DNA from: an uncultured Selenomonadales bacterium
GTDB taxonomy: Bacteria; Bacillota; Negativicutes; Selenomonadales; Selenomonadaceae
Assembly: GCA_946406415.1 (NCBI GenBank)
Contig: CAMJKR010000002.1
Location: forward strand, 1 to 35,865
Direction: 5' to 3'
DNA length: 35,865 bases
Shown: positions 30,792 through 35,865 of the stretch, piece after piece
Layout: every line of letters begins with the position of its first letter
Position numbering within the stretch: the first letter of the stretch is position 1
Program-made: the position numbers and the translations under genes
Notes under the pieces: generated by a model
Seen by the model: only the letters and a program-made list of their open reading frames with translations
Databases searched by the model: none
What the model was told of the DNA's origin: nothing

Positions 30792-32510
30792 CTAACAACT
30801 TGTATTTAAAGAATCGCGGATTGCTTTCAACGCTCGAATGGTTTCGTCAAGCTTTGTATCGGCGACGGTCTGAATCAGCGTAGAGATTTCGTCCAGTAAT
30901 TTTTGCGTTTCTGCACGTTTCTTTTCCAACTCGACACGGAGATTTTCTTCGTCAGCAAAAGATTGAATCGACTCATCGGAGACGACATCAACACTCTCGT
31001 CACTATCCTCCGTTGGTGTCAAATTCGATTCGGAATTTTGTATCGGCATGGATTCACTCTCGATAATAATATCCTCTTCACTCTCGCCGACACTTTGAAT
31101 TTGCTCGGCTACTTCATCCTCCACAGCGAAAAGACTAAGCTCATTATCTTCTGTTGCAGAAACCTCTTTGCTTTTGGTTTCTTTCCACTGTTTGACAGCC
31201 TGCTGAACTTGCCGCGCAGATTGAGTTTCGACCGGACTGCCTGCTTGCGCTTGTGCCTCGATAAAAGCTTCTTCGTCGCCTTCCGGCAATGCCAACATTT
31301 TTATCAGCGTTGTAGTCGTCAAATCGGAAATCGATTTTCGATTTCCAAAACGTTCCGCTATCGCCATAAAATTTCGTGCAGTACGATCTGTCCACTCAAA
31401 TTCTTTCTCAAGCCAATCAGTCCAGCCACCGTGTCCGATTTCTTTCTTTGCCGCGATAAGCTCAAAACCGATTTCGATAATGCCGCGTTGAACATCAGCC
31501 TGCAGGCGACGGATTCGCTCGGCACGGATTTCTAACGTTACCGGTTGAGAAGATTCAATCGGCAACTCAATCAGCTCGGTAGCACTATCATCGCCTTCAG
31601 GCTCCCGCGTAGGTTTATCATCAACGACAGGCTCAATCGGTTGCTCGACCACGTCCAACTCACAAAAGTTACCGTGCTTAACGAGCTGATAATGCTCTCC
31701 ATCGTCTCCCACGACCTCAAAGGGAAACTGCGACAGGAACTGCCGCACTCGATTTAAAAACTCTATATCCTTATTCGTCATCAAGTCGGAGATAAGTGAC
31801 TCGGTGTCAGCAATATTCAGTTTCTCGTGTAATTCTCGACGCAAGACAGGTGCGAAGTCGTGTTGACCGTTGCTGATTTTTTCCGCGTGCAATAATATCG
31901 TGTTGTAGTCGGCACGTGAAATTTCCGCCACTTTATTCATAGCGCATTCCTCCTTACATTGAACAACATTGTTCAATTTGCTATTACTCTCTTCATAAGT
32001 AGCTTTGGCAGAATCATAAGCTTGTTGGTAAAGCTCCTGCAAATAGTGCGGTAATCTTTCTACTAACGCCCCAAAATGATACAAAAGAACCTCGCCGACA
32101 AGCGACACGACGACAGAAAACACTGCGGCGGTTGAGCAATACAGCGTATCGAACAGCTCTTTGTTTCCTTCGTATCTAAGTCCCTCTCTGGCAAACTCAA
32201 GAGCAAGTCCAGATACATAAGGACGTTCCTCTTTAAAGCGCATATGGGCAATAGAATAATCATCGGGCGGCGTAGAATAACCTTCAAAAATTTGATTGAC
32301 GGCAATGGAGAACGTTTTGTTCATGCCGTCTCCTTCAAAAAGAGAATAATCGCATTCCTTCTGACGGGCGTCGGTGGCGTTCATCAAGCCCAGAATAATC
32401 CTAAACGTAATTTGGTCGTCCTCGTCAATATGATGTGATTCAGCTTTTTTCAAAGTGCCAGCGACGAATTTTTTCAACGACCGCCAATGATTTTTATTGA
32501 TAGCATCCAT
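30792..32510 (-). CDS. DUF3102-domain protein of a mobile element
   Basis: 572 aa from ATG 32510, chosen because GGAGAAACTTT precedes it; the open frame upstream has no good start. Residues about 127-150 are hydrophobic. Residues about 330-400 match the DUF3102 pattern: RAERIRRLQADVQRG, IGFELIAAKKEIGHG, GWTDWLEKEFEWTDRTARN and FMAIAERFG. The next segment (IKMLALPEGDEEAF) recalls ParB-type proteins. The C-terminal third is acidic and ends in a coiled coil. DUF3102 proteins are common on Firmicute plasmids and integrated elements; the function is not established, though a partition or replication accessory role fits its place after the Rep gene. Confidence 0.85.
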   Translation of the reverse strand: MDAINKNHWRSLKKFVAGTLKKAESHHIDEDDQITFRIILGLMNATDARQKECDYSLFEGDGMNKTFSIAVNQIFEGYSTPPDDYSIAHMRFKEERPYVSGLALEFAREGLRYEGNKELFDTLYCSTAAVFSVVVSLVGEVLLYHFGALVERLPHYLQELYQQAYDSAKATYEESNSKLNNVVQCKEECAMNKVAEISRADYNTILLHAEKISNGQHDFAPVLRRELHEKLNIADTESLISDLMTNKDIEFLNRVRQFLSQFPFEVVGDDGEHYQLVKHGNFCELDVVEQPIEPVVDDKPTREPEGDDSATELIELPIESSQPVTLEIRAERIRRLQADVQRGIIEIGFELIAAKKEIGHGGWTDWLEKEFEWTDRTARNFMAIAERFGNRKSISDLTTTTLIKMLALPEGDEEAFIEAQAQAGSPVETQSARQVQQAVKQWKETKSKEVSATEDNELSLFAVEDEVAEQIQSVGESEEDIIIESESMPIQNSESNLTPTEDSDESVDVVSDESIQSFADEENLRVELEKKRAETQKLLDEISTLIQTVADTKLDETIRALKAIRDSLNTSC

Positions 32511-32685
32511 AAAGTTTCTCCTTTCAGCTATCGCAACGTAGTAACGTCCTACAATGCGCCTGCGCAGGGCGATATTGACAACAATTATCAACGCAGCTCG
32601 CGGGGGTTACATTTGCAACATCCTACCTTAAAAAGAGTAATCTAAAGCAAGTCGGAACGTCAGATAATTTTTGACGCCAACGGAA
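32511..32685 (-). promoter_or_regulatory. Rep-DUF3102 intergenic region with operator-like repeats
   Basis: This 175-bp gap holds an imperfect inverted repeat TTGATAATTGTTGTCAA (minus, 32591-32575), the 10-bp palindrome cctgcgcagg (32559-32568), and two copies of aacRtcctac (32543-32552 and 32617-32626). A GGAG ribosome binding site for the DUF3102 gene lies at its left end. No terminator was seen. These could be an operator or a partition-type site; the evidence is only the repeats. Confidence 0.35.
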
Positions 32686-34383
32686 TTACGGAGTCGGAAG
32701 TATTTTTTTAGAGAGCAAGTCGTCAACAGAATTGGGCGGGCGCGGCAAAGCAGTCGGGTCGTCGCACAAGGCGGAGACACCTAACTCAACGAGCTTTTCT
32801 TTCACCCAACGGGACAACGCTTCATAACCTTCAGCGGCTTTTTGACGCAACTGCGGAATCAGGAAGTTCCGATAAAACAGGCGCAGAATCTCAAAATCCA
32901 TGTGCGCAATAACTTTACTCGGCGGCAATTCGCAAGTCACAGGATTTTTATCGGGATGCGCGGCAAAATACTCGTTGATTTTCTTGATAATCGGGCGGGA
33001 GAACTGCAACGCCGGCAAGCCCTTCGTCGCGATTGCATATTCCGTCCACAAGTCAATATTCCCGGCACTAACCTCACGCAACAAGTCAAACGGAATCTTG
33101 CTGTTCTTGATAACGTTCGCCGAGACCTCTTTATCTATACCGTAGACATGCAGATGGTCGTAACCTTCAATCTTATCCAGATAAATGCTGTCCTTAACGG
33201 GACGAAGTTCACCTTTACGCTCACCCTTGTTGTAGCGGCTAAAATGCAGACCATGCGCCTCAAACGCGGGCATATACGACGGGTCAATCTCTTCGCCGAA
33301 TTCTTTCTTGAACTGCGCGGCGACAATCTCAACCCAGTCATTCTTCAGTTGAGATTCCATGTCGGAAACGGTTCCAAACTTACCCTTCGGCACGAACAAA
33401 ATCACATGGAAGTGCGGATGCCAACCTGCATTCGGCAAAATCTCACCATCGGGAGTAATTAATCCGTCGTTAAGCGTGATTTCCAAGCGGCGGACATAAC
33501 CTTGCAAGTCCATCGCCGCCCGACGCTTCCTCGCAGACCAACTGGACACAAAGAAATTATCCCACGAGTTCTGCAAGACATTGAGCAAGTTCTTCAAGTG
33601 ATGCCAGCGGTGGAAGATTGTCAGCGTCATCATAAAAGGCACACAATCGTTCAAATACGCCCACGCAATCGCCTTCTGGATACGCAACCGCCATTTATAC
33701 AATTCTTTTGGCGCGTCGACGGGGTCAAGCCAAATGGAGTGTGACCGACAAATATCATCAAGCCGGACACTGGTATTACCATTCTTCTCAGACGCAACAA
33801 CATCAACGTAGTCGTAACGGAATAAGTCTCTTGCGGTTGGGATTTCGGGGGATTTAAGAACCTTCTCGGCGTCAAAGAACAGCGAGTCATTATCCCGCAC
33901 GGAATCATGCAGATATTGACGATACCACGGAGAATTCTTCCAATCAATAGACTTCGGGTCAATACCGCGCTTACGCAAACGCGCAGTCAACGGCAACATA
34001 GATTCGTGCGCAAACTTCAATGACGGAAACAAATCAAGCAAAGTTTCAACGACGCGATGTTCTTGGTTCCATTCACGACGCCAATCCAAGCCCAACAACG
34101 AGTCAAAATCTTCAACGGAACGCAAGGCAAGATACAATTTCGCCCGCCTGAGCATTTCAAACGACTGATTGCGCTCCAAAATCTTCGCGCCAAGCAATGC
34201 GTCGGGGAGTTCGACGAAAAGTGGGGCACCCGCAGGACAGGTTCTATAGTTCCGAGACCTCTCCGGGTTCAAATTTTGAACGCCGACGCCCAAGCGAGAG
34301 CGTCGCTTACTATTATAAGTATTTTTTTCAAATAAACTAAGTATCCGTTTTCTAAAGTTCATAAAGGTTTCCTTCATTGCCAC
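32686..34383 (-). CDS. Rolling-circle replication initiator, HUH family (Rep_1-like)
   Basis: 565 aa from GTG 34383, about 9 nt after GGAGGT; ATG 34377 and ATG 34362 are also possible. Motif I is MMTLTIFHRW (251-260); motif II with the metal-binding histidines is HPHFH (322-326), preceded by YVRRLEITLND. A segment ATKGLPALQFSR (452-463) matches the conserved tail of the family. Motif III, normally E-x-A-K-Y-x-x-K, reads EVSANVIK (419-426), with Asn at the place of the catalytic Tyr. The N-terminal 230 residues are longer than in small plasmid Reps. It would nick the element's origin. It is preceded by a structured leader with a terminator and followed by the DUF3102 gene. Confidence 0.8.
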   Translation of the reverse strand: MAMKETFMNFRKRILSLFEKNTYNSKRRSRLGVGVQNLNPERSRNYRTCPAGAPLFVELPDALLGAKILERNQSFEMLRRAKLYLALRSVEDFDSLLGLDWRREWNQEHRVVETLLDLFPSLKFAHESMLPLTARLRKRGIDPKSIDWKNSPWYRQYLHDSVRDNDSLFFDAEKVLKSPEIPTARDLFRYDYVDVVASEKNGNTSVRLDDICRSHSIWLDPVDAPKELYKWRLRIQKAIAWAYLNDCVPFMMTLTIFHRWHHLKNLLNVLQNSWDNFFVSSWSARKRRAAMDLQGYVRRLEITLNDGLITPDGEILPNAGWHPHFHVILFVPKGKFGTVSDMESQLKNDWVEIVAAQFKKEFGEEIDPSYMPAFEAHGLHFSRYNKGERKGELRPVKDSIYLDKIEGYDHLHVYGIDKEVSANVIKNSKIPFDLLREVSAGNIDLWTEYAIATKGLPALQFSRPIIKKINEYFAAHPDKNPVTCELPPSKVIAHMDFEILRLFYRNFLIPQLRQKAAEGYEALSRWVKEKLVELGVSALCDDPTALPRPPNSVDDLLSKKILPTP

Positions 34384-34411: not shown

Positions 34412-34452
34412 AAAAAGGCGACACTCACCTTTTCCCAGTGAATGTCGCCTTT
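34412..34452 (-). terminator. Intrinsic terminator/attenuator just upstream of rep
   Basis: On the minus strand AAAGGCGACA at 34452-34443 pairs perfectly with TGTCGCCTTT at 34423-34414; four further pairs of TTCAC/GTGAG extend the stem. Five T follow. The ribosome binding site of rep starts about 14 nt later, so termination here would switch rep off. Confidence 0.75.
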
Positions 34453-34693
34453 CTCTGCTTTACAAAAACCTCGTAAAGCTTTATAATCAGTTCAGTTCTT
34501 TGATAAAAATCATCTGAACCCGTAGCCGTGAGTCGTTTCTGAGTGGGTGCTGGCGGCACTCACGAGGAGTTAAGACCTTCGGGCGAATGATTTGGGCATT
34601 CACCGGTTGAAGCTCTGCAAGTCTCGTAAACTTGCAGGGCTTTCGCGTTTCTATGCTATAAAATCACTCCTAAAATTGTTATGTGTATTCGTT
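34412..34693 (-). ncRNA. Structured rep leader RNA, putative attenuator or origin
   Basis: In transcript order the hairpins are: 34641-34611 (CTGCAAGT/ACTTGCAG, extended by AGC/GCT), 34601-34585 (GAATG/CATTC), 34564-34527 (CGTGAGT/ACTCACG), 34519-34490 (GTTCAG/CTGAAC with inner TGAT/ATCA), 34479-34457 (GCTTTAC/GTAAAGC), then the terminator. The segment GTGAGTGCCGCC (34563-34552) differs by one base from the 3' terminator arm GTGAGTGTCGCC (34428-34417), so either can pair with the 5' arm GGCGACATTCAC (34449-34438). That is the logic of an antiterminator. No known RNA family was recognised. Hairpin clusters upstream of a Rep can also be single- or double-strand replication origins. Confidence 0.5.
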
Positions 34694-34699
34694 GCTCTA

Positions 34700-34728
34700 A
34701 TGATAAACTTTTTCTCTGGAAAAAACAA
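34700..34728 (-). promoter_or_regulatory. Promoter of the rep leader transcript
   Basis: On the minus strand TTGTTT (34728-34723) and TATCAT (34705-34700) are spaced 17 bp apart, close to the sigma-70 type consensus. The predicted start is near 34693, giving a leader of about 280-310 nt before rep. Confidence 0.6.
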
Positions 34729-35074: not shown

Positions 35075-35836
35075 TCACCTCCCGCAAGCTCTGACTTCTT
35101 GCATAATCTCTTTCCCGTAATTTTTATTTTGGCGACCAAGCGGACTCAGGTCTTGTATTACCTGTTCAACTGTGGCGGACGAATATTTTTTACTCAATTC
35201 TTTTGCTGACTCGATGTCGAATCGTTTTTGCTTTGTCGGTGAATATTCGTATGGCGAATGAAGTGCGGTTGTTAAAATTTTGTAGCCCGTAGAGTTTTTT
35301 GACGCTTTGCCGTCTTGCATACTGCAGACGTTTTCATCAATCCGCGTAACAAAGGCTTTGAACTGTTTACTCGACAACGTAACTGCCGGATATTTCTCGC
35401 GTACCTCTTTCGCTTTGAAAAATTTCTTAACGCCGTCGAGCAATTTTTGAGTAAATGCGGCTAGCCTGCCCGCTAAGCTCCGATTTTCTTTTGAAATTTT
35501 TTCAAGGACGCGCCGACCCGTCTTCATGTCGGCAAAAGCATCGGCAAGCATTTCTTCCATTACCTTCGACTTGCTCATTTTCGGCTGTTTGACCGCTTGG
35601 CGATAATCTTCTATCTGCTGAGTGCTAAAAATTTCGTGACGTTCAACATGAGCAAGAATATCCTCGTAAAGTTCCGGCTCGTGCTTTTTCATCACATGAA
35701 AAGCTTCATGCCAAAACGCCCAATCCAACGATGTTTCTGTCTTCCCGTTCAGATACATGATGTCTCTGTCGTCGTCATATCTGCCGTGTAATTCCGGCGT
35801 ACCGTCAAAATGGATATATAATATAAAAGTGGACAC
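35075..35836 (-). CDS. Zincin-like metallopeptidase fragment, 5'-truncated
   Basis: 253 aa if GTG 35836 is the start; there is no ribosome binding site there and an in-frame TAA lies at 35854-35852. MYLNGK at residue 27 is another possible start. A zinc motif HEAFH (43-47) and the downstream EEMLADAFAD (94-103), which would supply the third ligand, are clear. The RYDDDRDIMYLN segment before it is the usual strand leading into the active helix. A basic amphipathic C-terminal half follows. Such zincin domains occur in large polyvalent proteins of phages and conjugative elements. The beginning reads as if cut at the TGTCCACT repeat, so this is probably the tail of a longer protein. Confidence 0.6.
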   Translation of the reverse strand: MSTFILYIHFDGTPELHGRYDDDRDIMYLNGKTETSLDWAFWHEAFHVMKKHEPELYEDILAHVERHEIFSTQQIEDYRQAVKQPKMSKSKVMEEMLADAFADMKTGRRVLEKISKENRSLAGRLAAFTQKLLDGVKKFFKAKEVREKYPAVTLSSKQFKAFVTRIDENVCSMQDGKASKNSTGYKILTTALHSPYEYSPTKQKRFDIESAKELSKKYSSATVEQVIQDLSPLGRQNKNYGKEIMQEVRACGR

Positions 35837-35862
35837 AAAAAAAGACGTATATTAGTGGACAC
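35829..35862. repeat. Direct repeat gtggacac at the window edge
   Basis: gtggacac occurs at 35829-35836 and 35855-35862, 26 bp apart. Flanking bases are partly alike (aaaagtggacac and ttagtggacac). The first copy coincides with the apparent truncation point of the metallopeptidase gene. It could be the end of an insertion sequence lying outside the window, but no transposase is visible. Confidence 0.4.
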
Positions 35863-35865
35863 GAA

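Follow-up and report, generated by a model that had tools for sequence, protein, structure and literature searches.

A putative antisense-controlled attenuator leader shared by plasmid replication genes in a genus of Selenomonadaceae

The window considered here is a stretch of 35,865 nucleotides from contig CAMJKR010000002.1 of an uncultured Selenomonadales bacterium, and close to its right end, on the minus strand, lies a rep gene preceded by a long leader. The Rep translation contains the HUH motif HPHFHVILF and also matches the Pfam profile Rep_1, which together identify it as an initiator of that family; a search with the protein recovered only distant relatives, located on small plasmids and annotated as rep, and gave no phage match. 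The leader has homologs upstream of several kinds of replication gene, and we consider it likely to be a transcriptional attenuator in which a countertranscript limits expression of the plasmid replication initiator. The parts of the window leader nearest to rep, with the gene itself, are as follows.

32686-34383, minus strand: rep, HUH rolling-circle initiator, Pfam Rep_1 (PF01446, E 5.6e-10), with a GTG start codon at 34383
34400-34391, minus strand: strong rep ribosome binding site, AAGGAGGTGA
34412-34452, minus strand: intrinsic terminator, composed of segments 3 and 4 and a T run, recognized by folding and conserved in the leader family
34428-34414, minus strand: segment 4, GTGAGTGTCGCC...
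34449-34438, minus strand: segment 3, GGCGACATTCAC
34533-34527, minus strand: segment 2, ACTCACG, the complement of CGTGAGT within segment 1, read from the sequence
34567-34552, minus strand: segment 1, CCTCGTGAGTGCCGCC, read from the sequence
34541-34563, minus strand: optional hairpin GTGAGTGCCGCC..CACCCACTC, which holds segment 1 and is a candidate alternative pre-emptor in the window leader

The four segments had been pointed out in an initial annotation of this DNA, which proposed that segments 3 and 4 form a terminator and that segment 1 can pair instead with segment 3. All four are present on the minus strand, and segments 1 and 3 do pair at 11 of 12 positions, one of them a G-U pair, with a C-A mismatch at the remaining position. 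This pairing is not a matter of chance, since only 0.3% of dinucleotide-shuffled leaders contain a complement to segment 3 as good as segment 1, and it forms when the leader is folded up to segment 3. The 286-nt leader as a whole is far more stable than its shuffled versions (z = -6.8). The terminator (34452-34412) stands immediately upstream of the initiator gene, the last base of its T run being 34412; the rep ribosome binding site follows after about 11 nt, in place of the 14 or so that had been claimed.

A covariance search of Negativicutes genomes, which had been suggested as a check on the leader, did uncover homologs. With a covariance model built on the 5' domain of the leader, 55 matches were found in one Selenomonadaceae genus, spread over 16 of 66 genomes; the genome from which the window comes has 7 of these leaders and a second genome 19. 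Where records of this kind carry a name, it is that of uncultured Selenomonadaceae from goat duodenum and reindeer. In other genera no match was obtained, with 380 genomes of the class searched and a sample of 398 from the phylum, under stricter filters with which weak matches may be lost. Rfam gave no match to the window at the gathering score, and its countertranscribed-RNA families gave none either, whether on the window leader (E values to 5) or on 17 homologous loci (E values to 0.5). The leader likewise had no nucleotide match in the PLSDB plasmid collection, and an exact-pattern scan of IMG/VR returned 5 contigs, 0 of which were confirmed by the covariance model. We found no description of the family in the literature, as covered by open-access sources with most subscription papers outside. 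In all, 49 leaders were read, and 40 of these were complete enough for the structural tests described below.

The genes that follow the leaders are of very different kinds. Among 20 downstream proteins scanned for domains, one (at locus L054) matches Rep_1, as does the Rep of the window itself, and 5 match DnaB-like helicase; the remaining proteins with a match have either Toprim/D5 primase-helicase or PriCT_2 together with domains of the VapE-like or DUF927 type. No domain was recognized in four, 3 of which are similar in sequence to others in the set. Replication genes of four kinds or more thus have the leader in front of them, namely Rep_1, DnaB-like helicase, Toprim/D5 primase-helicase and PriCT_2/VapE. 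One carrier contig (G000:C24, locus L198, 14,017 bases) has a 55-bp direct overlap of its termini. Next to the leader and the PriCT_2/VapE replicase that follows it, this contig encodes a MobA/MobL relaxase, and it also has an Abi_C protein. The overlap is consistent with a complete mobilizable plasmid, which is probably circular and about 14 kb in size. An end overlap, as proof of circularity, was absent from 22 of 23 contigs that were checked, among them the window.

Hairpins near rep are usual in the origins of rolling-circle replicons, and the initial annotation had offered as an alternative that the hairpins of this leader are the double-strand origin. That is extremely improbable, because this leader is also found in front of DnaB-like and primase/helicase genes, which lack a Rep_1 domain. 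In addition, a nick sequence of the pC194 type is not present in the leader, the CTTGATA matches being within rep at 32983 and 33106, and the covariation described below follows helices of the RNA type.

A part of the leader that the initial annotation overlooked, along with the dozens of homologous leaders and a further pairing treated below, is a promoter on the plus strand. It adjoins the terminator and reads away from it, across segments 2 and 1 and the two hairpins termed P3 and P2. The features on or defining this strand are the following.

34459-34487, plus strand: antisense RNA promoter, with -35 box TTTACA (34459-34464), a 17-nt spacer and -10 box TATAAT (34482-34487), 11 of 12 positions agreeing with the sigma-70 consensus
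34494-34655, plus strand: predicted antisense (countertranscribed) RNA of about 160 nt, deduced from its promoter together with the 34610-34642 hairpin
34610-34642, minus strand: hairpin P2, conserved in the leader family

As far as sequence can tell, a promoter that reads against the leader from within it is a general property of the family. In the 95 nt before the terminator, an antisense-strand promoter agreeing with the consensus at 9 or more of 12 positions occurs in 36 of 40 leaders, and one agreeing at 10 or more in 25 of 40; the same 95 nt in the sense orientation give 7 of 40 and 1 of 40, and shuffled sequences 12% and 1%. The spacing is 17 in 37 leaders and 16 in the other 3, and the distance from the -35 box to the terminator arm ranges from 15 to 63 nt. 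Read on the plus strand, P2 followed by TTTCGCGTTTC is probably the 3' terminator of the antisense RNA, and a hairpin closely resembling P2, with a T tract, is also located outside any leader at locus L015. The predicted RNA is complementary to P2, to P3 with its pre-emptor strand 'a', to the 5' strand of helix P4 and to segments 1 and 2, and is not complementary to the terminator. Leaders that reside in the same genome are 72-73% identical in the 5' domain and 45-48% identical in the variable part, which the antisense RNA reads first; the low identity there is what would be expected if the variable part sets plasmid specificity.

The position of the predicted RNA bears on how it might act. 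For pC194 and pUB110, which also have Rep_1 initiators, an antisense RNA has been proposed in the translation initiation region, where it would block translation (PMC5703833). An RNA acting mainly on the translation or stability of rep mRNA, with the terminator of minor importance, is unlikely here: the predicted antisense RNA, with its start upstream of the terminator, does not reach the rep ribosome binding site, in which it differs from the pC194/pUB110 arrangement, and both a strong terminator and the pairing to its 5' arm are conserved.

The conserved promoter also speaks to a different reading of the 5' domain. Among 17 members, 31 positions of this domain are invariant, as might be found if it (GGAGG..TATAG, P2 and P3) were the aptamer of a ligand-sensing riboswitch that switches the terminator. 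We rejected that possibility, which is very improbable, on the nature of the downstream genes and on the antisense promoter. The genes controlled are unrelated plasmid replication genes and no metabolic regulon, so that, judged from them, there is no conserved ligand-binding domain tied to such a regulon; a conserved antisense promoter would be unexpected in a riboswitch; the conservation of P2 is accounted for by its role as the putative antisense RNA terminator; and no Rfam family matches.

The conserved elements with which an antiterminator could be built lie further from rep, and in the window leader are these.

34660-34671, minus strand: 5' conserved block, AGGAGTGATTTT (in the family GGAGG-N-TATAG, with GGAG and TATA invariant), its 3' partner being 34577-34565
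34580-34607, minus strand: hairpin P3, with the conserved pre-emptor 'a' as its 5' arm, CCGGTGAATG (34606-34597)
34555-34568, minus strand: 5' strand of helix P4, TCCTCGTGAGTGCC, overlapping segment 1 and assigned by family covariation
34468-34480, minus strand: 3' strand of helix P4, within the antisense promoter spacer

Three long-range helices nested as a(b(P4)c)d connect these elements to the terminator region. In the family, 'a' is the P3 5' arm (CUGGUGAAUG) and is complementary to 'd', the 5' arm and loop of the terminator (CAUUCACCAG); 'b' is the 3' base of P3 (CCAGAAAGUCC) and is complementary to 'c' (GGACUUUCUGG), which in the sense orientation comes just after the antisense -35 box. 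In P4, a strand of the variable region pairs with the antisense promoter spacer, for example UAUCGCUA/UAGCGAUA and GCGUCGCC/GGCGACGU. In the window leader, 34606-34597 can pair over 10 bp with segment 3 and the terminator loop (about 34444-34435), and P4 (UCCUCGUGAGUGCC/AGCUUUACGAGGU) has -14.6 kcal/mol as an isolated duplex.

For each of a:d, b:c and P4, a leader's own strands pair more stably than strands swapped between leaders (0 of 300 permutations each). With 24 representatives of less than 75% identity, permutations as good as the true pairing numbered 16 of 5000 for a:d and 0 of 5000 for both b:c and P4, and with 6 representatives of less than 65% identity b:c (19 of 5000) and P4 (30 of 5000) were still significant. 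The control pairs a:c and b:d showed no advantage of own partners. Because 'c' and the P4 3' strand are outside the antisense RNA, the covariation of b:c and P4 must reflect the sense RNA. Positions of the terminator loop also covary with 'a' (at position 2, all 11 C occur with G and 15 T with A), beyond what the terminator stem can explain. When the 5' domain alone was given a consensus fold almost no covariation was seen, since the informative helices are long-range.

These comparisons place the conserved pre-emptor, the partner of the terminator 5' arm, in the P3 5' arm, where it is backed by two further long-range helices, b:c and P4. They do not bear out segment 1 as a general antiterminator: its hairpin is present in 6 of the 40 complete leaders, and segments 1 and 3 do not covary family-wide. 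In four genomes, all 8 matches to this hairpin are within leaders. In the window the role of pre-emptor seems to be shared with segment 1. The pairing of segments 1 and 3 has a probability of 0.9-1.0 at most truncation points and a:d appears at one, so that two alternative pre-emptors are apparent there, and in these models segment 1 seems to compete with or supplement the conserved one.

Partition functions were consistent with a switch in the family as a whole. When the RNA was cut before the terminator 3' arm, a:d exceeded 0.5 in 34 of 40 leaders and 'd' was paired upstream in 40 of 40. When the part covered by the antisense RNA was blocked, the terminator formed in 38 of 40, the other two (L022 and L067) having been cut short by the script; for the window leader its probability was then 1.00.

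The sequence-level support for an attenuator consists of the conserved terminator, the conserved antisense promoter, the covarying antiterminator helices and the position before replication genes; from these we infer that the antisense RNA is produced, that it causes termination and that it has a role in copy number. The rep mRNA would start near 34680-34690. If antisense RNA is lacking, the nascent leader would fold into the nested long-range helices and the pre-emptor (the P3 5' arm in the family, that arm and/or segment 1 in the window) would pair with the terminator 5' arm, sequestering it, and RNA polymerase would read through into rep. The promoter on the opposite strand, just upstream of the terminator, would give rise to the antisense RNA, which would bind the pre-emptor strands without pairing to the terminator. 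The terminator 5' arm would be freed to pair with its 3' arm, and transcription would halt before rep. A rise in plasmid copies would raise the antisense RNA and lower Rep, providing negative feedback on copy number, and divergence of the variable part would make recognition plasmid-specific. The initial annotation had recognized a terminator/antiterminator leader of a rolling-circle rep, and a copy-number device is still its most likely function; the agent that throws the switch, absent from that proposal, is most likely the antisense RNA.

Several results weigh against this mechanism. The covariation of a:d is carried mainly by two loop positions, and with the 6 very divergent representatives it is not significant (1365 of 5000 permutations). 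In the window leader a:d fluctuates between 0.0 and 0.56 with the pairing of segments 1 and 3 often preferred, P4 is unpopulated in the partition function, and no clear b:c helix is found (-5.5 kcal/mol). The U tract of the antisense terminator is interrupted. Finally, full-length folding favors the terminator in most leaders even when antisense RNA is left out, and read-through would thus need folding kinetics, with the antiterminator kinetically trapped. The same would hold for the known attenuator systems.

Among the closest precedents is plasmid pT181, where control upstream of repC involves a pre-emptor, a terminator and an antisense RNA of 87 nt (Novick et al. 1989, as described in PMC5703833). 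The proposed mechanism resembles it in having a rolling-circle initiator, an antisense RNA directed against an untranslated leader, a pre-emptor whose partner is the 5' arm of a terminator situated shortly before the rep start, and release of the terminator by antisense binding. The two differ in that the initiator of pT181 is Rep_trans, whereas the leader family serves Rep_1 and several other types; the antisense RNA is 87 nt in pT181 and predicted to be about 160 nt here; the family has additional nested helices, one strand of which falls in the spacer of the antisense promoter; and it matches no Rfam family, that of the pT181 antisense RNA included. In pIP501, the 136-nt RNAIII acts by attenuation in a 329-bp leader of repR (PMC4981023), a system that is similar in leader length, antisense RNA and terminator-based attenuation of an initiator gene, but that also uses the CopR repressor; its sequence relation to the present family was compared through Rfam only. 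The best reading would be that the leaders work like those of pT181 and pIP501 yet constitute a separate family.

The countertranscript attenuators of the cited literature belong to individual plasmids of Gram-positive hosts, with one initiator type each. If the present interpretation is true, a family common to unrelated initiators in a rumen and gut Selenomonadaceae genus would make copy control a separable, exchangeable module, the leader would be a sequence marker with which to find and type plasmids in poorly studied bacteria, and dozens of naturally diverged attenuators would be on offer for RNA engineering. On a broader proposal we are evenly divided: that one modular attenuator cassette has spread through a single genus of diderm Firmicutes and become linked to plasmid replication genes of four or more unrelated kinds, with an antiterminator strand written inside the antisense promoter spacer, so that promoter and RNA switch could diversify together and many plasmids could coexist in one cell.

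The sense promoter of the leader can be placed as follows.

34687-34712, minus strand: AAAAGTT-N12-AACGAAT, from which the rep leader is probably transcribed, a degenerate version of a family motif

The family motif, AAAGGA[T/A]-N13-G[GTC]CGAAT, is promoter-like and stands 5' of most of the 49 leaders; in the window a sigma-70-like sequence, TTGTTT-17-TATCAT (34728-34700, minus strand), overlaps the probable promoter. The motif itself is unlike a sigma-70 promoter. It has 19 exact matches in four genomes, versus 1 for a reversed control, and is also located 5' of ordinary host genes, identified by translation as rsmH, hpf and argS (loci L204, L206 and L208). The idea that AAAGGA-N13-GNCGAAT is specific to these elements was rejected, as it is found before host genes too.

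Some further observations concern the surroundings of rep and the window as a whole. A gene for a DUF3102 protein (30792-32591, minus strand) comes after rep, and a DUF3102 gene also adjoins the DnaB-type replication gene of a relaxase-bearing contig (L197). A reading frame of at least 7814 amino acids, with repeated segments, occupies 2-23443 on the minus strand; it begins MKNKVFVMNDFKFDLQRFDS and is open at the window end. The other end of the window (35836-35865) falls at the same base as the end of contig G005:C9, to which the window is 99.9% identical over 32.8 kb, and this common end suggests that both assemblies probably broke at a repeat.

The start of the leader has two peculiarities of its own. 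After the sequence GGAG-N8-AUA (in the window at 34670-34653, minus strand), 35 of 44 leaders have a stop in frame within 2-7 codons, versus 6 of 44 for one other frame, a contrast weakened by the relatedness of the sequences; this could be a mini open reading frame that begins at a non-AUG codon, or else a decoy ribosome site. At loci L078 (G032:C211) and L207 (G005:C47), the stretch from the leader start through the end of P2 adjoins a transposase-like gene (MKRKNRDTPGRRIAQAIIAQYKP...), in an arrangement that is nearly identical in the two genomes.
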